Positions 12,585-38,077 of a DNA stretch of 64,000 bases are shown here, in pieces. Made by a program: the position numbers and the translations under genes. This DNA comes from Serratia surfactantfaciens. GTDB taxonomy: Bacteria; Pseudomonadota; Gammaproteobacteria; Enterobacterales; Enterobacteriaceae. The stretch is taken from positions 4,650,001 to 4,714,000 of the forward strand of contig NZ_CP016948.1 of NCBI RefSeq assembly GCF_001642805.2. The letters are read 5' to 3'. Every line of letters begins with the position of its first letter. The stretch's first letter is position 1. A model generated the notes under the pieces. It saw nothing but the letters and a program-made list of their open reading frames with translations, searched no databases and was not told the origin of the DNA.

Positions 12585-12782
12585 ATGAGTATTTTACTAC
12601 TGCCAACGGTTGCCAAGATGGAAAGTGAGGAACGTACACAGGGCTATGAGCGCTGGTTTCTTGAGAGCGTTCAGGAAGCCATGGATGAGCCGCTGCCCGG
12701 TATTCCTCATGACGAGGTGATGGCTGAAATGGATGCGGTTATCGCTGCTGCAGAAGCCAGGATGAAAGCTAAGCAGTCATAA
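12585..12782 (+). CDS. Putative antitoxin of a ParE/RelE-type module
   Basis: A 65-residue acidic protein starting at 12585 behind AAGGGG. It has no strong motif, but the helix-rich composition, the C-terminal AEMDAVIAAAEARMKAK and especially the one-base overlap (TAATG) with a downstream RelE/ParE-like gene mark it as the partner antitoxin. It would bind and neutralise the toxin and probably repress the operon. Assignment rests mainly on context. A second in-frame ATG at residue 12 is possible but lacks a ribosome site. Confidence 0.7.
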   Translation: MSILLLPTVAKMESEERTQGYERWFLESVQEAMDEPLPGIPHDEVMAEMDAVIAAAEARMKAKQS

Positions 12783-13057
12783 TGCTCAACATCGAATGGA
12801 CTCGATCCGCTCGTCGGGATCTGGCGGAGATTGTGGGATTCATCGCCAATGATAATCCCTTGGCGGCCAGAAAAATGAAGCTTCTCATCATGGAGGCGGT
12901 CATTCCCGCCGCCAGACATCCTCGACTTTTCCGGCGTGGCAGAGTGGATGGCACGCATGAAATCCCTCTACATCCCAATTATCTCTTGGTTTATCAAGTG
13001 CTGGAAACTCACATCCGGGTGTTGAGGGTTTTACATGCGCGCCGACAATATCCGTAG
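12782..13057 (+). CDS. Type II toxin of the RelE/ParE superfamily
   Basis: A 91-residue basic protein. IEWTRSARRDLAEIVGFIA at the N-terminus, RHPRLFRRGRVDGTHEIPL in the middle and LVYQV...IRVLRVLHARRQYP at the end are characteristic of the RelE/ParE fold. Family members either cleave mRNA at the ribosome or poison gyrase; this pattern (VLRVLHARRQYP ending) looks more ParE-like, but the target is not decidable by eye. Its ATG overlaps the antitoxin stop by one base. The pair interrupts the tusA-zntA neighbourhood, suggesting horizontal gain. Confidence 0.83.
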   Translation: MLNIEWTRSARRDLAEIVGFIANDNPLAARKMKLLIMEAVIPAARHPRLFRRGRVDGTHEIPLHPNYLLVYQVLETHIRVLRVLHARRQYP

Positions 13058-20085: not shown

Positions 20086-20327
20086 AAGCGTTGTTTGGTT
20101 TCTTTTGCGGCGCGGGGCCGCCGAGGTTAACGAAAAGTTGTCCCTATTCTACCGGTGACGGGCGTCGGGGGGAACGGTAAAACGTTGTTGTCTGATTTCA
20201 CGCCGGAAAGCATGCCGGATGCGTGTTGCTGCGCGAGGGAAAGTGATAGACTCGGCGGATTATTGTCAGCATATATCCTTCAGGTATGTAGGGTAAGCGA
20301 GCCTTCGGTACGGAGTAGAGTCATAAC

Positions 20328-22031
20328 ATGGCAAAAGATAAGAAACGTGGGTTTTTCTCCTGGCTGGGCTTTGGCCAGAAGGAGAAGGAAGAAGAGCAAC
20401 AGCAACCTGAGCCGTCGGTAGAGCAGGCGGAACCTCAGGCCGCGGAGACGCCGGCTGAACCGGTCGCCGCCAAGCTGGACGACAAGCTCCCCGCCCAGGA
20501 ATCTGAACCTGCCGCCTCCGTCGACACCCCGGGAGAGTGGGATAACGGTCAGGCCGGCGAGCAAATCGCAGAAAATCTGCCTGCGGCGGCCGAACATCCG
20601 GCGGCGCAAGCGCTGGCCGAAGAGATCGTCAGCGTAACTGAACAGGTGGCGGCGCAGCAGCAACCTGTCACCGAACCCGAGCCGGTTGTCGAGCCAGAGC
20701 CGGTCGTTGAATCCGAGCCGGTTGTCGAGCCAGAGCCAGTCGTTGAACCCGAGCCGGTTGTCGAGCCAGAGCCAGTCGTTGAACCCGAACCGGTTGTCGA
20801 GCCTGAGCCGGTCGTTGAGCCTGAGCCGGTCGTTGAACCTGAGCCGGTCGTTGAGCCTGAGCCGGTCGTTGAGCCTGAGCCGGTCGTTGAGCCTGAGCCG
20901 GTCGTTGAGCCTGAGCCGGTTGTCGAGCCTGAGCCGGTCGTTGAACCCGAGCCGGTCGTAGAGCCTGAGCCGGTCGTTGAGCCTGAGCCGGTCGTCGAAC
21001 CTGAGCCGGTTGTTGAACCCGAGCCAGTCGTTGAGCCAGAGCCGGAAGCGGAAGAAGAGCCGCTGGAACCCGTCGTGCCGGCCGCTGCGCAAGAGCAAGA
21101 GCGCCCGACCAAAGAGGGCTTCTTCGCGCGCCTGAAGCGCAGCCTGCTGAAGACCAAGCAGAACCTCGGCTCCGGCTTTATGGGGCTGTTCCGCGGCAAA
21201 AAGATCGACGACGACCTGTTCGACGAGCTGGAAGAACAGCTGTTGATCGCCGACGTTGGCGTGGACACCACGCGCAAGATCATCACCTCCCTGACTCAGC
21301 ACGCCAGCCGCAAGCAGCTGAAAGACGCCGAAGCGCTGTACGGCAAGCTGAAGGAGGAAATGTCCGAAATTCTGGCCAAGGTCGATCAGCCGCTGGATGT
21401 CAGCGGGAAAACCCCGTATGTCATCCTGATGGTCGGCGTGAATGGCGTGGGTAAAACCACCACTATCGGTAAACTGGCGCGCCAGTTCCAGGCGGAAGGC
21501 AAGTCGGTGATGCTGGCGGCGGGGGACACCTTCCGCGCCGCGGCGGTGGAGCAGCTGCAGGTGTGGGGCGAGCGCAACCGCATTCCGGTGGTGGCGCAGC
21601 ATACCGGCGCGGATTCCGCTTCGGTGATCTTCGATGCGGTGCAGGCCGCCAAGGCGCGTGGCATCGATGTCTTGATCGCCGATACCGCCGGCCGTCTGCA
21701 GAACAAATCGCATCTGATGGAAGAGCTGAAGAAGATCGTCCGCGTCATGAAAAAACTGGACGACCAGGCCCCCCATGAGGTTATGCTGACGCTCGATGCC
21801 AGTACCGGCCAGAATGCGGTCAGTCAGGCGAAATTATTTAATGAAGCCGTGGGCTTAACCGGCATCACGCTGACTAAACTGGACGGTACCGCCAAGGGCG
21901 GGGTGATCTTCGCCATCGCCGATCAGTTCGGTATCCCGATTCGCTATATCGGCGTCGGTGAAGGCATCGAAGATTTGCGGCCGTTTAAGGCTGACGATTT
22001 TATTGAGGCACTTTTTGCCCGAGAGGATTAA
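20328..22031 (+). CDS. ftsY: Signal recognition particle receptor FtsY
   Basis: SRP receptor GTPase that docks ribosome-SRP complexes at the inner membrane. The 567 residues (497 in E. coli) start with a basic amphipathic segment ([19 protein letters not shown]). A long acidic A domain follows, containing twenty hexapeptide repeats of the EPVVEP type (separate entry). The N domain ([18 protein letters not shown]) and the G domain complete the protein: [15 protein letters not shown] near residue 370, DTAGR, and [10 protein letters not shown]. The extra length lies in the acidic repeat, not in the catalytic NG core. ftsE starts 5 bp after the stop. Confidence 0.97.
20679..21038 (+). repeat. Twenty 18-bp repeats in the ftsY acidic domain
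   Basis: Exactly 360 bp of tandem 18-mers, each coding Glu-Pro-Val-Val-Glu-Pro (one unit has Ser for the last Pro). The units differ in synonymous positions (GTT/GTC/GTA, GAG/GAA, CCG/CCA/CCC/CCT), so the array is not a recent perfect expansion. Such arrays can change copy number by slippage and can collapse in short-read assembly, so the true number is uncertain. Confidence 0.9.
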
Positions 22032-22036
22032 TACGG

Positions 22037-22330
22037 ATGATTCGCTTTGAACAGGTCAGTAAAGCTTATCTGGGCGGACGGCAAGCGCTGCAGGGGGTAG
22101 ATTTCCATCTGCGCCCAGCGGAAATGGCGTTTCTGACCGGCCATTCCGGCGCGGGGAAAAGTACCCTGCTGAAACTGATTTGCGGTATCGAACGGCCCAG
22201 CGCCGGCCACATCTGGTTTGGCGGTCACGACATCAGCCGTTTGAAAAACCGCGAGGTGCCGTTCCTGCGCCGGCAGATCGGCATGATCTTCCAGGATCAC
22301 CACCTGCTGCTGGATCGCACGGTGTATGAC
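22037..22330 (+). CDS. ftsE: Cell-division ABC ATPase FtsE, N-terminal part (gene split by chimeric insert)
   Basis: Codons 1-98 of FtsE, the ATPase that with FtsX activates septal peptidoglycan hydrolases through EnvC. Walker A is TGHSGAGKSTLLKL at about residues 38-51, and the Q-loop RRQIGMIFQDHHLL follows. The reading breaks after Asp98 (RTVYD) at 22330, where a 38-bp mosaic-end palindrome begins; in the assembly it then runs seven nonsense codons to a stop at 22351. The missing part resumes in frame at 24994. Joined, the gene has 223 codons (222 in E. coli). ftsE is essential or near-essential, so a real disruption is unlikely. Confidence 0.93.
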
Positions 22331-22368
22331 CTGTCTCTTATACACATCTAGATGTGTATAAGAGACAG
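22331..22368. repeat. Head-to-head Tn5 mosaic ends (Nextera mate-pair junction adapter)
   Basis: A perfect 38-bp palindrome: CTGTCTCTTATACACATCT followed directly by its reverse complement. Each half is the engineered 19-bp Tn5 mosaic end used in Nextera library kits, and the head-to-head fusion is the junction adapter of the mate-pair protocol. It is synthetic, not native. It produces the well-known spurious peptides SLIHI and SYTHLDVYKRQ in six-frame translations of this spot. Confidence 0.97.
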
Positions 22369-22469
22369 GAGTAGAGTCATAACATGGCAAAAGATAAGAA
22401 ACGTGGGTTTTTCTCCTGGCTGGGCTTTGGCCAGAAGGAGAAGGAAGAAGAGCAACAGCAACCTGAGCC
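22369..22469 (+). repeat. 101-bp exact duplicate of the ftsY 5' end
   Basis: Identical to 20313-20413 (ribosome site, ATG and first codons of ftsY). It abuts the adapter exactly where the 5' end of a circularised 20313-22330 fragment (2018 bp) would be read. It is not a functional second ftsY. Confidence 0.93.
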
Positions 22470-24127
22470 ACGGTGCCGCCACTTCGTGCGGTCAGTGAAC
22501 CGACCGTGCCGCTGCCGCCGACGATACCGCCGTTCTGCACGCTGACATCCGAGGTGACCGAGCCGTTGATCGCCAGCCGCCCCTGATTGACCAGCGTCGG
22601 GCCGGCATAGGTGTTGGTGCCGGTCAGCACCAGGGTGCCCACGCCCTCTTTGGTCAGGCCGCCGTGGCCGGAGATGTCGTTGGAGTAGGTTTCCCATCCA
22701 CAGTGGAAGTCATCACATTTCCTGGCGTGCAGCGTACCGGCATCCACCTCGGCGCCGATCCCCGGAATATTGGCGACAAACTGGGTCGAGCCATAGGCCA
22801 CGCCCGTCGGATCCGGGATGCGGAATTCTGCGGGAATATCCTCAACGGTATAGAACATGCCCGGGCCTTTGATGGCCTTGCCCAGGTTGATCATCCCCCA
22901 GCCGTAGAGCGCGTCGATGCCCGGCGCCCCCATATCGGTGGCGGTGGTTTTCAGCACGTCGGCAATCTGCGCCGAGGTCATGTACGGGAAGCGCTGCAGC
23001 AACACCGCCACCGCACCGGTCACGTGCGGCGTCGCCATCGAGGTACCGTTTTTATTGCCGTAGTCCGAAACCAGATGGGCCGGATCGGAGCCGTTGGCCA
23101 CGGTGCTGTAGATTTTGCTGCCCGGTGACGACACGCAGAAGCTGGCGGTATAGCCGCAGCGGGAAGAGAAGCTGCTGATGGTGTAAGGCACGCTGTTGCT
23201 CGATGCCGCATCCTGCGCCACGCTGGCGACCGACAGCCAGTTCGGCGCGATATCCGGCACAAAGTAGGCCAAGCCGCTGATCACGTCCGGCTGGTTGTAG
23301 TTGCCGTCGTTGCCGGCGGCGAACAGCACCAGAATATTCTTGCGCGCGGCGTCGATAGCGCCCTGATAACCTGCGCCGGCCAGGCTGCCGAGCAGCGGTT
23401 TGACCTGATCGAACTGTTCCTGCGCATCCTTCAGCTCAAAGTGCAGCGCATTAGGATCGCGGCCGCCGTCGGACAGAAAGTCGGGAATGCTGACGCCCCA
23501 GCTGTTGTTGATCACCCGCGCGCCGCTCTTGATCATCGCCTGCCAGCCGGCATTGGTGACGGCGCCGTCCAGACCGAGGAATTCTCCGTAAGCCGGGCCG
23601 TCGTTGTCGTTATCGACGCTGATCACCTGCGAATCGAAGGCCACGCCGTGCATGCCGGTGCCATCGCGGTTGGCCGCGCTGATCCCCGCGACGTGCACCC
23701 CGTGGTTGCTCAATGTCGCCCCGCTATAGAAATGGAAGGTGCCGTCGAAGTAAAAGCGATCGCCGGCGTTGATCCCCGGCCGGTGCGGGTCGGTATAGGC
23801 GCGGTAGCCTTCGGTGACGACGTTGATCAGTTTGCCGTCGCCGGCGAACTCGGGATGGTGGTTAACCGGGGTGTCGAAAATGCCCACCTTCTGCCCTTTG
23901 CCGGTATAGCCGGCGGCGTAGGCCTCATCGGCATGGATCGCCCCCAGCCCCCAGTTGGCATTGAACTCGGCGCTGCGCCAGCTGGCCGGATCGCCCGCCT
24001 GGCCGTTCTCTATATAGGTTGCGGCCTGCGCATACCCCGCCAGCCCCATGCAGCAGACCAGCGCGTTCAGCCGCCACGGTGAGCGACGAGCCTTTCCTTT
24101 GCTATCAAAACCCATTGTTGTTGTCAT
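22470..24127 (-). CDS. Subtilisin-type serine protease autotransporter, N-terminal passenger only (Ssp-like)
   Basis: First about 552 residues of an S8-family type V autotransporter; the rest is lost at the chimeric junction. A signal peptide (basic start, then LNALVCCMGLAGYAQA ending at residue 35) precedes the protease domain. The triad is Asp85 (VGIFDTPVNH), His142 (LSNHGVHVAG) and Ser363 (NGTSMATPHV), with oxyanion Asn273 (AAGNDG). A passenger-associated repeat (GVGTLVLTGTNTYAG) lies just before the break at GGTVA. S. marcescens carries several such proteases (Ssp, Ssp-h1, Ssp-h2). Read through the junction, this would create a false hybrid protein. Confidence 0.88.
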
Positions 24128-24193
24128 TTCCTTACCTTTTGCTTGTTATTGGCCGACGCCCCAGGTGCGTCGGGTTCTCATTAGCAGGATGTG

Positions 24194-24220
24194 AAAAAGG
24201 AACCGCCCGCAGACGGTTCC
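24194..24220 (-). terminator. Rho-independent terminator after the upstream autotransporter
   Basis: GGAACCG (24199-24205) pairs with CGGTTCC (24214-24220), and on the minus strand the stem is followed by TTTTT. It lies 25 bp beyond the stop of the beta-barrel fragment, in the gap before the second autotransporter. Confidence 0.75.
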
Positions 24221-24245
24221 CGTACAAGGATTGAGAAGAAGCGTC

Positions 24246-24993
24246 TTAGAAGCGCCAGGTGAAGCCGGCGTTGACGCTGTTGTCCTGATGATGCTGCGAC
24301 AGCAGCCCGCCGTAGCCCAGCGACAGCGTGGCGTTCTCGTTCACCGCCACTTCCGCCCCCGCCTTCAGCACCATCCCGTCGCGCGAGACCGGCACGCTGC
24401 CCACCACGAACGGCGCGTTGCCGCCGTTGAACCGCAGACCCGTGCCACGCTCCACTCCGCCGTACTGGTGTTGCCACCCCAGCTCGCTGCGCAGCGCCAC
24501 CGTCGTGCCCGGGCTCACCTGCCATGCGGTGTCCGCGCGCAGGCCCAGCGTCGACACCGTCGCATCGGTATGCTGCTTGTCCCCGCGCAGCGCCGCCGCG
24601 CCACCGCTCTCCCCGATGCCGTTGTTCTCGAAGTTCACGTACGCCAGGTTCACGAACGGCTCCAGGTTCAGCCACTCCCCTTTCACGCTGTAGCCCGCTT
24701 CCGCGAACAGCTGCTCGGTGCGCGCGCTGTACTTCGCCGTGTCACGGTCCGACTGCATTCCGTAGTTCACCGACCGTTTGGTGTCGATGCGGTGCCAGGT
24801 GTAGCCCGCACCGCCGCGCAGCGCCAGCGCACCGAACTGCTTGTCGCCGTACGCCGCCAGGTGGTAGTTGTCACTGTCCGCCTTCGACCCGTACCCGCCG
24901 TGCAGCGAGGTGCGGGTGTAACCGGTCGCTACCCCCAGCCGCCCGTCGTCCGCAACCGCCGAGTCCAGCCCGACCAGCACCCCGTAGGTCGAG
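24246..24993 (-). CDS. Autotransporter beta-barrel translocator domain, C-terminal fragment
   Basis: The last about 248 residues of a second autotransporter, reading from about 24992 (STYGVLVGLDSAVADDG) to TAA at 24246-24248. Alternating amphipathic strands (NYHLAAYGDKQFGALALRGG, LNLEPFVNLAYVNFE) and the terminal aromatic residue of SVNAGFTWRF are typical of the 12-stranded outer-membrane barrel. Its passenger is cut off where ftsE resumes. In the source genome it would lie 118 bp upstream of the passenger gene at 24127, on the same strand, making tandem paralogues. Confidence 0.88.
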
Positions 24994-25371
24994 AACGTGG
25001 CGATGCCGCTGATCATCGCCGGCGCCAGCACCGAAGACATCCGTCGCCGCGTCTCCGCCGCGCTGGATAAGGTCGGTCTGCTGGATAAAGCGAAGAACTT
25101 CCCGATTCAGCTGTCTGGCGGTGAGCAGCAGCGTGTGGGCATCGCCCGTGCGGTGGTGAACAAACCGGCGGTGCTGCTGGCGGATGAACCGACCGGTAAC
25201 CTGGACGATGCGCTGTCGGAAGGCATTCTGCGCCTGTTTGAAGAATTCAACCGCGTCGGCGTGACCGTCCTGATGGCGACGCACGACACCGGGCTTATCG
25301 CCCGCCGCAATTACCGCATCCTGACGCTGAGCCAGGGCCGCATGCAAGGGGGCGCTCACCATGGCCAATAA
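24994..25371 (+). CDS. ftsE: Cell-division ABC ATPase FtsE, C-terminal part
   Basis: Codons 99-223 of FtsE, resuming with Asn-Val-Ala-Met-Pro-Leu-Ile, the exact continuation expected after RTVYD at 22330. It carries the ABC signature [16 protein letters not shown], Walker [15 protein letters not shown] and the H-loop [13 protein letters not shown] at 24997 could be mistaken for a start but has no ribosome site; the segment before it is autotransporter DNA. It overlaps ftsX by 11 bp. Confidence 0.93.
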
Positions 25372-26314
25372 CGCAAAAACCGCCAAGAGCAAGGCGCTGC
25401 GCGGCGGCTGGCGCGAACAGTGGCGTTATGCCTGGATGAACGCCATCAAAGACATGCTGCGTCAGCCGTTGGCGACGCTGCTGACGGTGATGGTGATCGC
25501 CATTTCCCTGACGCTGCCGAGCGTGTGCTACATCGTGTGGAAAAACGTCAGCACCGCAGCCAGCCAGTGGTACCCGACGCCGCAGTTGACGGTCTACCTG
25601 GATAAATCGCTCGATGACGACGCGGCGCTGAAAGTGCTCGACGCCATCAAGGCGGAAGCCGGGGTGGAGAAAGTGAACTACCTGTCGCGTGAAGAAGCGC
25701 GCGGCGAGTTCCGCAACTGGTCGGGCTTTGGCGGCGCACTGGACATGCTGGAGGAGAACCCGCTGCCGGCGGTGGCGATCGTCACGCCGAAGCTGAGCTT
25801 CCAGAGTTCGGACACCCTCAACACCCTGCGCGATCGCGTAGCGGCGGTGCAGGGGGTGGAAGAAGTGCGTATGGATGACAGCTGGTTTGCCCGCCTGGCG
25901 GCGCTGACTGGGCTGGCGGGCCAGATCGCGGCGATCATCGGCGTGCTGATGATCGTGGCGGTGTTCCTGGTGATCGGCAACAGCGTGCGTCTGAGCATCT
26001 TCAGCCGTCGCGACACCATCAACGTGATGAAGCTGATCGGCGCCACCGACGGCTTTATTCTGCGGCCGTTCCTCAACGGCGGGGCGATGCTGGGCTTTGC
26101 CGGCGCGCTGCTGTCGCTGGTGCTGTCCGGCGCGCTGGTGTGGCAGCTTGAGTCGGTGGTCACCGGCGTAGCTAAAGTGTTCGGCACCACCTTCACCCTG
26201 CACGGGCTGGGTTGGGATGAGGCGCTGCTGCTGCTGATCATCTCCGCGATGATCGGTTGGATCGCCGCCTGGCTGGCGACGGTGCAACATTTACGCCGAT
26301 TTACACCACAGTAA
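25361..26314 (+). CDS. ftsX: Cell-division protein FtsX
   Basis: Permease-like membrane partner of FtsE; the FtsEX complex in the septum activates EnvC-controlled amidases rather than transporting a substrate. The 317 residues have a cytoplasmic N-terminus ([19 protein letters not shown]), a first helix ([20 protein letters not shown]), a large periplasmic loop and three C-terminal helices with [18 protein letters not shown] between them. It is somewhat shorter than E. coli FtsX (352) at the N-terminus. Translation is coupled to ftsE by overlap. rpoH follows after 316 bp. Confidence 0.95.
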
Positions 26315-37766: not shown

Positions 37767-38077
37767 TCCTCGCGGCGGCGGAGCACATGCCCGCCGCCGA
37801 CATCAAACCGCCATCTTCACTTCACCTTGCCGTCATGTGGCTGTCATGTAACGGTTATTTTTCTGTCATCCGAGCATGGCATGTTATCCCCCGTCATCTT
37901 TCGAGCCACAGCGTTGTTGGCTGCCCGGCTGCCCCCTGTCACTTAGTTAGCTAAGCTCCAGGGTGCCAGCAGGTTGCCGCCTGGCTGCAACTCGAAAGCT
38001 ATAGGGGGCACTCCCTCATCAAGAATTGATTCTTTTCGCTCACGCGCATTTACACCAGCTTTTTTCAGGAGTTAGGC
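37767..38077 (+). promoter_or_regulatory. ugpB promoter region
   Basis: 311 bp between the aminotransferase and ugpB. It includes a four-repeat Pho box (separate entry) and, further on, CTGGCTGC/GCAGCCAG-type inverted sequences around 37919-37985. The ugpB ribosome site is CAGGAG at 38066-38071. No gene is seen. Confidence 0.7.
37830..37869 (+). promoter_or_regulatory. Double Pho box (PhoB binding repeats) upstream of ugpB
   Basis: Four 7-bp direct repeats at exact 11-bp spacing: CCGTCAT (37830), CTGTCAT (37841), CGGTTAT (37852), CTGTCAT (37863), each separated by 4 bp. This is the PhoB recognition pattern and amounts to two adjacent boxes. It predicts induction of ugp genes in phosphate starvation, as known in E. 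coli. Confidence 0.88.

Follow-up and report, generated by a model that had tools for sequence, protein, structure and literature searches.

A mate-pair junction adapter and a displaced autotransporter piece within ftsE of a Serratia chromosome: very probably a two-layer assembly error

The window analysed here is a stretch of 64,000 bp from the Serratia surfactantfaciens chromosome in which ftsE is present in two parts. The first 98 codons are located at 22037..22330 on the plus strand (TIGR02673 profile positions 1-98 of 214), and the remainder of the gene, from codon 99 to the stop codon, is located at 24994..25371 on the same strand (profile positions 100-214 for the ORF 24997-25371); ftsX at 25361..26314 (plus strand, TIGR00439) is undisturbed. 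The two halves of ftsE are separated by 2,663 bp, made up of a 38-bp adapter-like palindrome, a 101-bp copy of ftsY DNA and autotransporter DNA on the minus strand that runs to position 24993. Codon 98 (GAC, 22328-22330) is directly followed by the palindrome, in the middle of which the ftsE frame meets a stop codon (104-aa ORF, 22037-22351). The first-pass annotation had placed the palindrome in frame between codons 98 and 99. It does begin after codon 98, but codon 99 is found at 24994 and not behind the palindrome, and as 38 bp is not a multiple of 3, "in frame" is true of the start point only. Apart from 22037-22330, which is the sole full-length ftsE match in the genome, three other matches are pieces of 39-94 bp with 70-85% identity. 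A chimeric open frame of 699 aa on the minus strand (22028-24127) spans autotransporter, ftsY copy, adapter and ftsE, with VSYTHLDVYKRQ as the translation of the adapter; the first six residues of this peptide are absent from the best 35 of the 120 listed database matches to the 699-aa frame. Rfam and tRNA scans of the window gave no match.

Two other features of the window were recorded. A toxin-antitoxin pair at 12585-13057 consists of a PaaA2-like antitoxin (65 aa, PF21217) and a ParE toxin (91 aa, PF05016), of which only one copy was found in the genome. The pair is variable, since its site measures 600 bp in the window versus 87 and 96 bp in the two collinear relatives compared (G004 and G015). 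At 37889-38007 there is a repeat of about 120 bp, partial copies of which are numerous elsewhere in the two relatives searched; by resemblance it is a putative enterobacterial intergenic repeat, and its site measures 11 bp in G004 versus 134 bp in the window.

The palindrome at 22331..22368 is composed of two 19-bp Tn5 mosaic ends set head to head with 0 bp between them. The first (22331-22349, plus strand) is CTGTCTCTTATACACATCT and the second (22350-22368, minus strand) is its reverse complement, both exact, just as the first-pass annotation had described them. No mosaic end was found elsewhere in the window at up to 3 mismatches, nor in 100 dinucleotide shuffles of the window, and no further copy of the 38-mer at up to 2 mismatches occurs in the chromosome of 5,117,644 bases (5.12 Mb), leaving the adapter as a single copy. 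An exact 38-bp palindrome of head-to-head mosaic ends is the form of a Nextera-type junction adapter, and we take the 38-mer to be the one known by that name. An identical 38-mer, letter for letter, is printed as a biotinylated ring adapter in the available excerpt of the methods of PMC7357533, according to which it was ligated to fragments made by ultrasound; the name Nextera does not occur in that excerpt.

The DNA on the right side of the adapter (22369..22469, plus strand) is an exact, same-strand copy of 20313..20413 (plus strand; repeat family D3, 101-bp exact identity), a source that comprises the start of ftsY (ORF 20328-22031, TIGR00064) together with the 15 bp preceding the gene. This source begins 2,018 bp upstream of the end of the left flank, so that the left flank ending at 22330 and the right flank starting from 20313 delimit one stretch of 2,018 bp (20313-22330, the presumed circularised fragment). 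The boundary has one base of play, as the adapter ends in G and a G also precedes the copied stretch, and bases 22467-22469 are compatible with both the ftsY copy and the autotransporter. A mate-pair circle joins the end of a fragment to its own start via the adapter, which accounts for the order of ftsE end, adapter and 20313 onward on one strand; the flanks are the two ends of one fragment, on the same strand, with the end before the start. By our own arithmetic, a random genomic join would land within 20 kb upstream on the same strand in about 0.2% of cases. As read from the assembled letters, the adapter is thereby shown to connect a single 2,018-bp genomic stretch end to start, in circular order, as in a mate-pair library. 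The earlier claim that the head-to-head fusion is the known mate-pair junction adapter is supported by this circularisation signature together with the 38-mer in the excerpt of PMC7357533. Within ftsY itself, 20592-21131 is a run of repeats with an 18-bp period that encodes a repeated VVEPEP stretch, and it is probably through this run that the length of the aligned ftsY block differs among relatives.

We compared the locus with 30 relatives and with the genome itself. Among the matches listed, the two ftsE parts adjoin in 18/18 same-genus relatives (G001-G018), a count that leaves aside 12 relatives of other families, and the alignment blocks ending at 22330 and beginning at 24991 adjoin with a 3-base overlap in the same 18/18 relatives, again among the matches listed. 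Sequences of seven of the 18 were fetched (G003, G004, G005, G007, G013, G015, and G017), picked for an autotransporter match in one long block. In all seven the two parts of ftsE, with the right part taken from 24994, join base to base with no base lost or gained, and no ftsE base is duplicated in any of these seven comparisons. The host gene is thus uninterrupted in the relatives (18/18, and base-exact in 7/7), as it should be if the window contains a misjoin.

The DNA between the ftsY copy and the second part of ftsE carries pieces of two autotransporter genes on the minus strand. Gene B (22467..24127; PF00082, PF12951, NF051851) is represented by its N-terminal S8 (subtilase) passenger part and is cut at 22467, and gene C (24246..24993; PF03797, TIGR01414) by its C-terminal beta-barrel end, cut at 24993. 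The gene C barrel and its native-locus counterpart on this chromosome (G000:C1:4255899-4256644) share 98.5-99% identity. In the seven fetched relatives the parts of gene B and gene C are contiguous at another locus: 22467-24993 (about 2.5 kb) aligns with a single stretch of a tandem autotransporter locus that is separate from ftsE, over 2,534-2,542 alignment columns at 91.9-93.9% identity. In seven more same-genus relatives this order recurs, split into two blocks of lower identity, for a total of 14/18 among the matches listed; the matches listed for G006, G009, G016, and G018 do not show this order. Each gene at the loci of the seven relatives consists of a passenger part, a 690-bp middle and a barrel, and the two genes are 96.96-99.86% identical in their middles and 97.99-99.33% in their barrels. 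The piece in the window extends from the tail of one middle to the beginning of the next and hence equals a tandem unit minus the 690-bp repeat; an unplaceable short-read contig would be expected to look like this. None of the 30-mers of this chromosome's own 690-bp middle, located at G000:C1:4256645-4257334, occurs in the window. The native locus (L146) is collinear on both flanks with those of the three relatives compared (L147, L150, and L151; three of the seven fetched), and it holds one gene versus two in the relatives, with a shift between alignment blocks of about 3.2 kb, equal to one unit. On either side of the middle, the displaced piece matches the native locus exactly, over 106 and 162 bp; it is both absent from its native position and repeat-bounded, as in a misjoin. 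On comparison with the relatives, the missing native unit, minus its 690-bp middle, is shown to be located in ftsE.

The same gene is found on short contigs in other assemblies as well. Among protein clusters P0001-P0035 (at least 91% identity; the best 35 of 120 listed, out of 2,605 found, with the cut at 35 chosen by us), 30 are on contigs of up to 3.5 kb, four are on longer contigs and one has no contig stated. This cluster count overstates the frequency of short contigs because by member sequences the full-length form dominates: cluster P0016 alone has 2,614, and the 30 short-contig clusters together have 422. Long contigs are also common further down the list of protein matches. Other assemblies would therefore seem to leave the autotransporter gene on short contigs often, though not usually. 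Many of the protein matches to the autotransporter frame are named Serratia marcescens.

A scan of GTDB genomes for the 38-mer gave at least 120 stretches (L026-L145); by their titles, the 120 listed come from about 19 organisms, and a few organisms dominate. Dozens of them are from one Enterococcus assembly, and up to four adapter copies occur in one stretch (L066, L100, and L107). In the 120 listed stretches a direct repeat of a flanking 24-mer within the stretch was found for 62/147 adapter copies versus 144/5,132 control positions, and an inverted repeat for 1/147 versus 1/5,132. Control positions less than 500 bases from an adapter and one stretch under 400 bases were dropped; before flanks with N or pieces of adapter were excluded, 63/147 copies had any repeated flank, two of these inverted. 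The signature of a direct repeat is thus frequent, but it is not general at this range, since 85/147 copies have none inside a stretch of at most 8 kb. Closer to the present genome the 38-mer was found in 0/29 other same-genus genomes and 0/397 other genomes of the phylum; with the single copy here, the adapter residue is therefore rare in these samples. Collections of E. coli complete genomes and of phages gave no match (megablast, E 1e-5). In a plasmid collection of 72,556 records, 11 records match the query 22300-22480; five were fetched and all have the exact 38-mer, and the other six match over the ftsY stretch. These five records are labelled complete (NZ_MF918372.1, NZ_CP032357.1, NZ_MF589339.1, NZ_KY978628.1, and NZ_MT039157.1; L163-L167). 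The 38-mer is outside the genes given for them in PLSDB's incomplete table, and in the Serratia entomophila plasmid record it is located at the extreme end. Our literature searches found one paper for the 38-mer, no paper on the adapter peptide VSYTHLDVYKRQ and none joining at least four of ftsE, mosaic end, adapter, misassembly and Serratia; surveys of such contamination may still be in print.

Two mosaic ends oriented like the ends of a transposon could be taken for the remnant of a real Tn5-type transposon or for a laboratory mini-Tn5 insertion in ftsE. The first-pass annotation had already noted that transposase, Tn5-typical cargo and a 9-bp target duplication are lacking, and these observations held up: with 0 bp between the ends there is neither cargo nor transposase between them; the families shown for the six scanned pieces near the adapter (ftsY, both ftsE parts, ftsX, and the two autotransporter parts) include no transposase; and no 9-bp duplication is seen in the flanks GTGTATGAC before and GAGTAGAGT after the palindrome or around the whole insert. 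In a mate pair, judging from the method, such a duplication is not expected since the two ends come from two separate events. The flanking copy of ftsY DNA would not be made by transposition. We rejected the Tn5 remnant on the lack of cargo, the lack of duplication and the presence of the ftsY copy, and regard it as scarcely credible. A different origin of the junction, from another library with the same mosaic ends instead of a Nextera mate-pair circle, is very unlikely. Other Tn5 kits also employ the mosaic end. In ordinary Nextera ends it is followed on the outside by primer and index tails. The palindrome has no such tails, and a bare head-to-head 38-mer joining the ends of a 2-kb stretch in circular order is the product of a mate-pair circle. 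Tagmentation is not required, as the same 38-mer was ligated to ultrasound fragments in the excerpt of PMC7357533, but a ligated ring adapter would likewise be a mate-pair artefact.

It might also be supposed that only the adapter is an artefact and that the autotransporter unit has truly moved into ftsE, in a strain that lives with the gene broken. A native locus without one unit is what recombination between tandem repeats would leave, and the missing native unit could in principle be a real deletion. However, an excised tandem unit would include the 690-bp middle, which is absent, and both ends of the piece fall inside the shared repeat. Moreover, the piece meets ftsE at the base adjoining the start of the adapter with no base lost, which would be a coincidence for independent events, and the gene is on short contigs in other assemblies too. 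We consider a real move highly improbable.

The reading that we prefer, with a probability of about 0.96, is that the adapter, the ftsY scrap and the autotransporter piece in ftsE constitute a two-layer assembly error and not biology. The natural course would be that an untrimmed read over the circle junction (ftsE end, adapter, and 101 bp of ftsY start) entered the assembly. Because the two tandem genes share a near-identical middle, a short-read assembly may have used this middle once, and the unique part would then remain as a spare contig whose overhangs are short (106 and 162 bp). In the assembly graph the adapter read would have created a branch that broke ftsE at 22330/22331, and during scaffolding or gap closure the break may then have been filled with the adapter tip and the left-over contig. 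Contigs cut at the adapter-read branch, with the cut filled afterwards, would account for the resumption of ftsE at precisely the following base. We infer this order of events from the assembled sequence and the relatives compared. The first-pass annotation, which called the palindrome contamination of the assembly and not a transposon, was right as to kind but too narrow as to extent, as the misjoin, with the adapter at its left edge, extends over 2,663 bp and also displaces one autotransporter unit. In the cell itself ftsE is most likely intact and the autotransporter locus most likely comprises two genes, and nothing here suggests a new biological system.

These probable errors matter for the use of the sequence, as this one-contig chromosome represents its species. 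Read literally, it would describe a broken cell-division gene and a tandem protease locus with one gene instead of two, both of which are probably false, and the chimeric 699-aa frame is the kind of false protein that could enter databases. Other assemblies might be screened by finding the 38-mer and then checking whether its right flank recurs on the same strand several kb upstream. Among known systems, the exact 38-mer and the circular order of its flanks resemble the mate-pair adapter residues found in assemblies, but here the residue belongs to a one-contig chromosome and has a displaced piece of 2.5 kb behind it. The 19-bp mosaic ends are shared with Tn5 and mini-Tn5 insertions, from which the locus differs in that its ends enclose no cargo and a 9-bp duplication is lacking. 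The autotransporter part is like a collapsed tandem repeat with a left-over unit, in that a near-identical repeat bounds a unit that is gone from its native place and is found elsewhere; unlike in that case, the left-over piece is here inside a conserved gene, behind an adapter.
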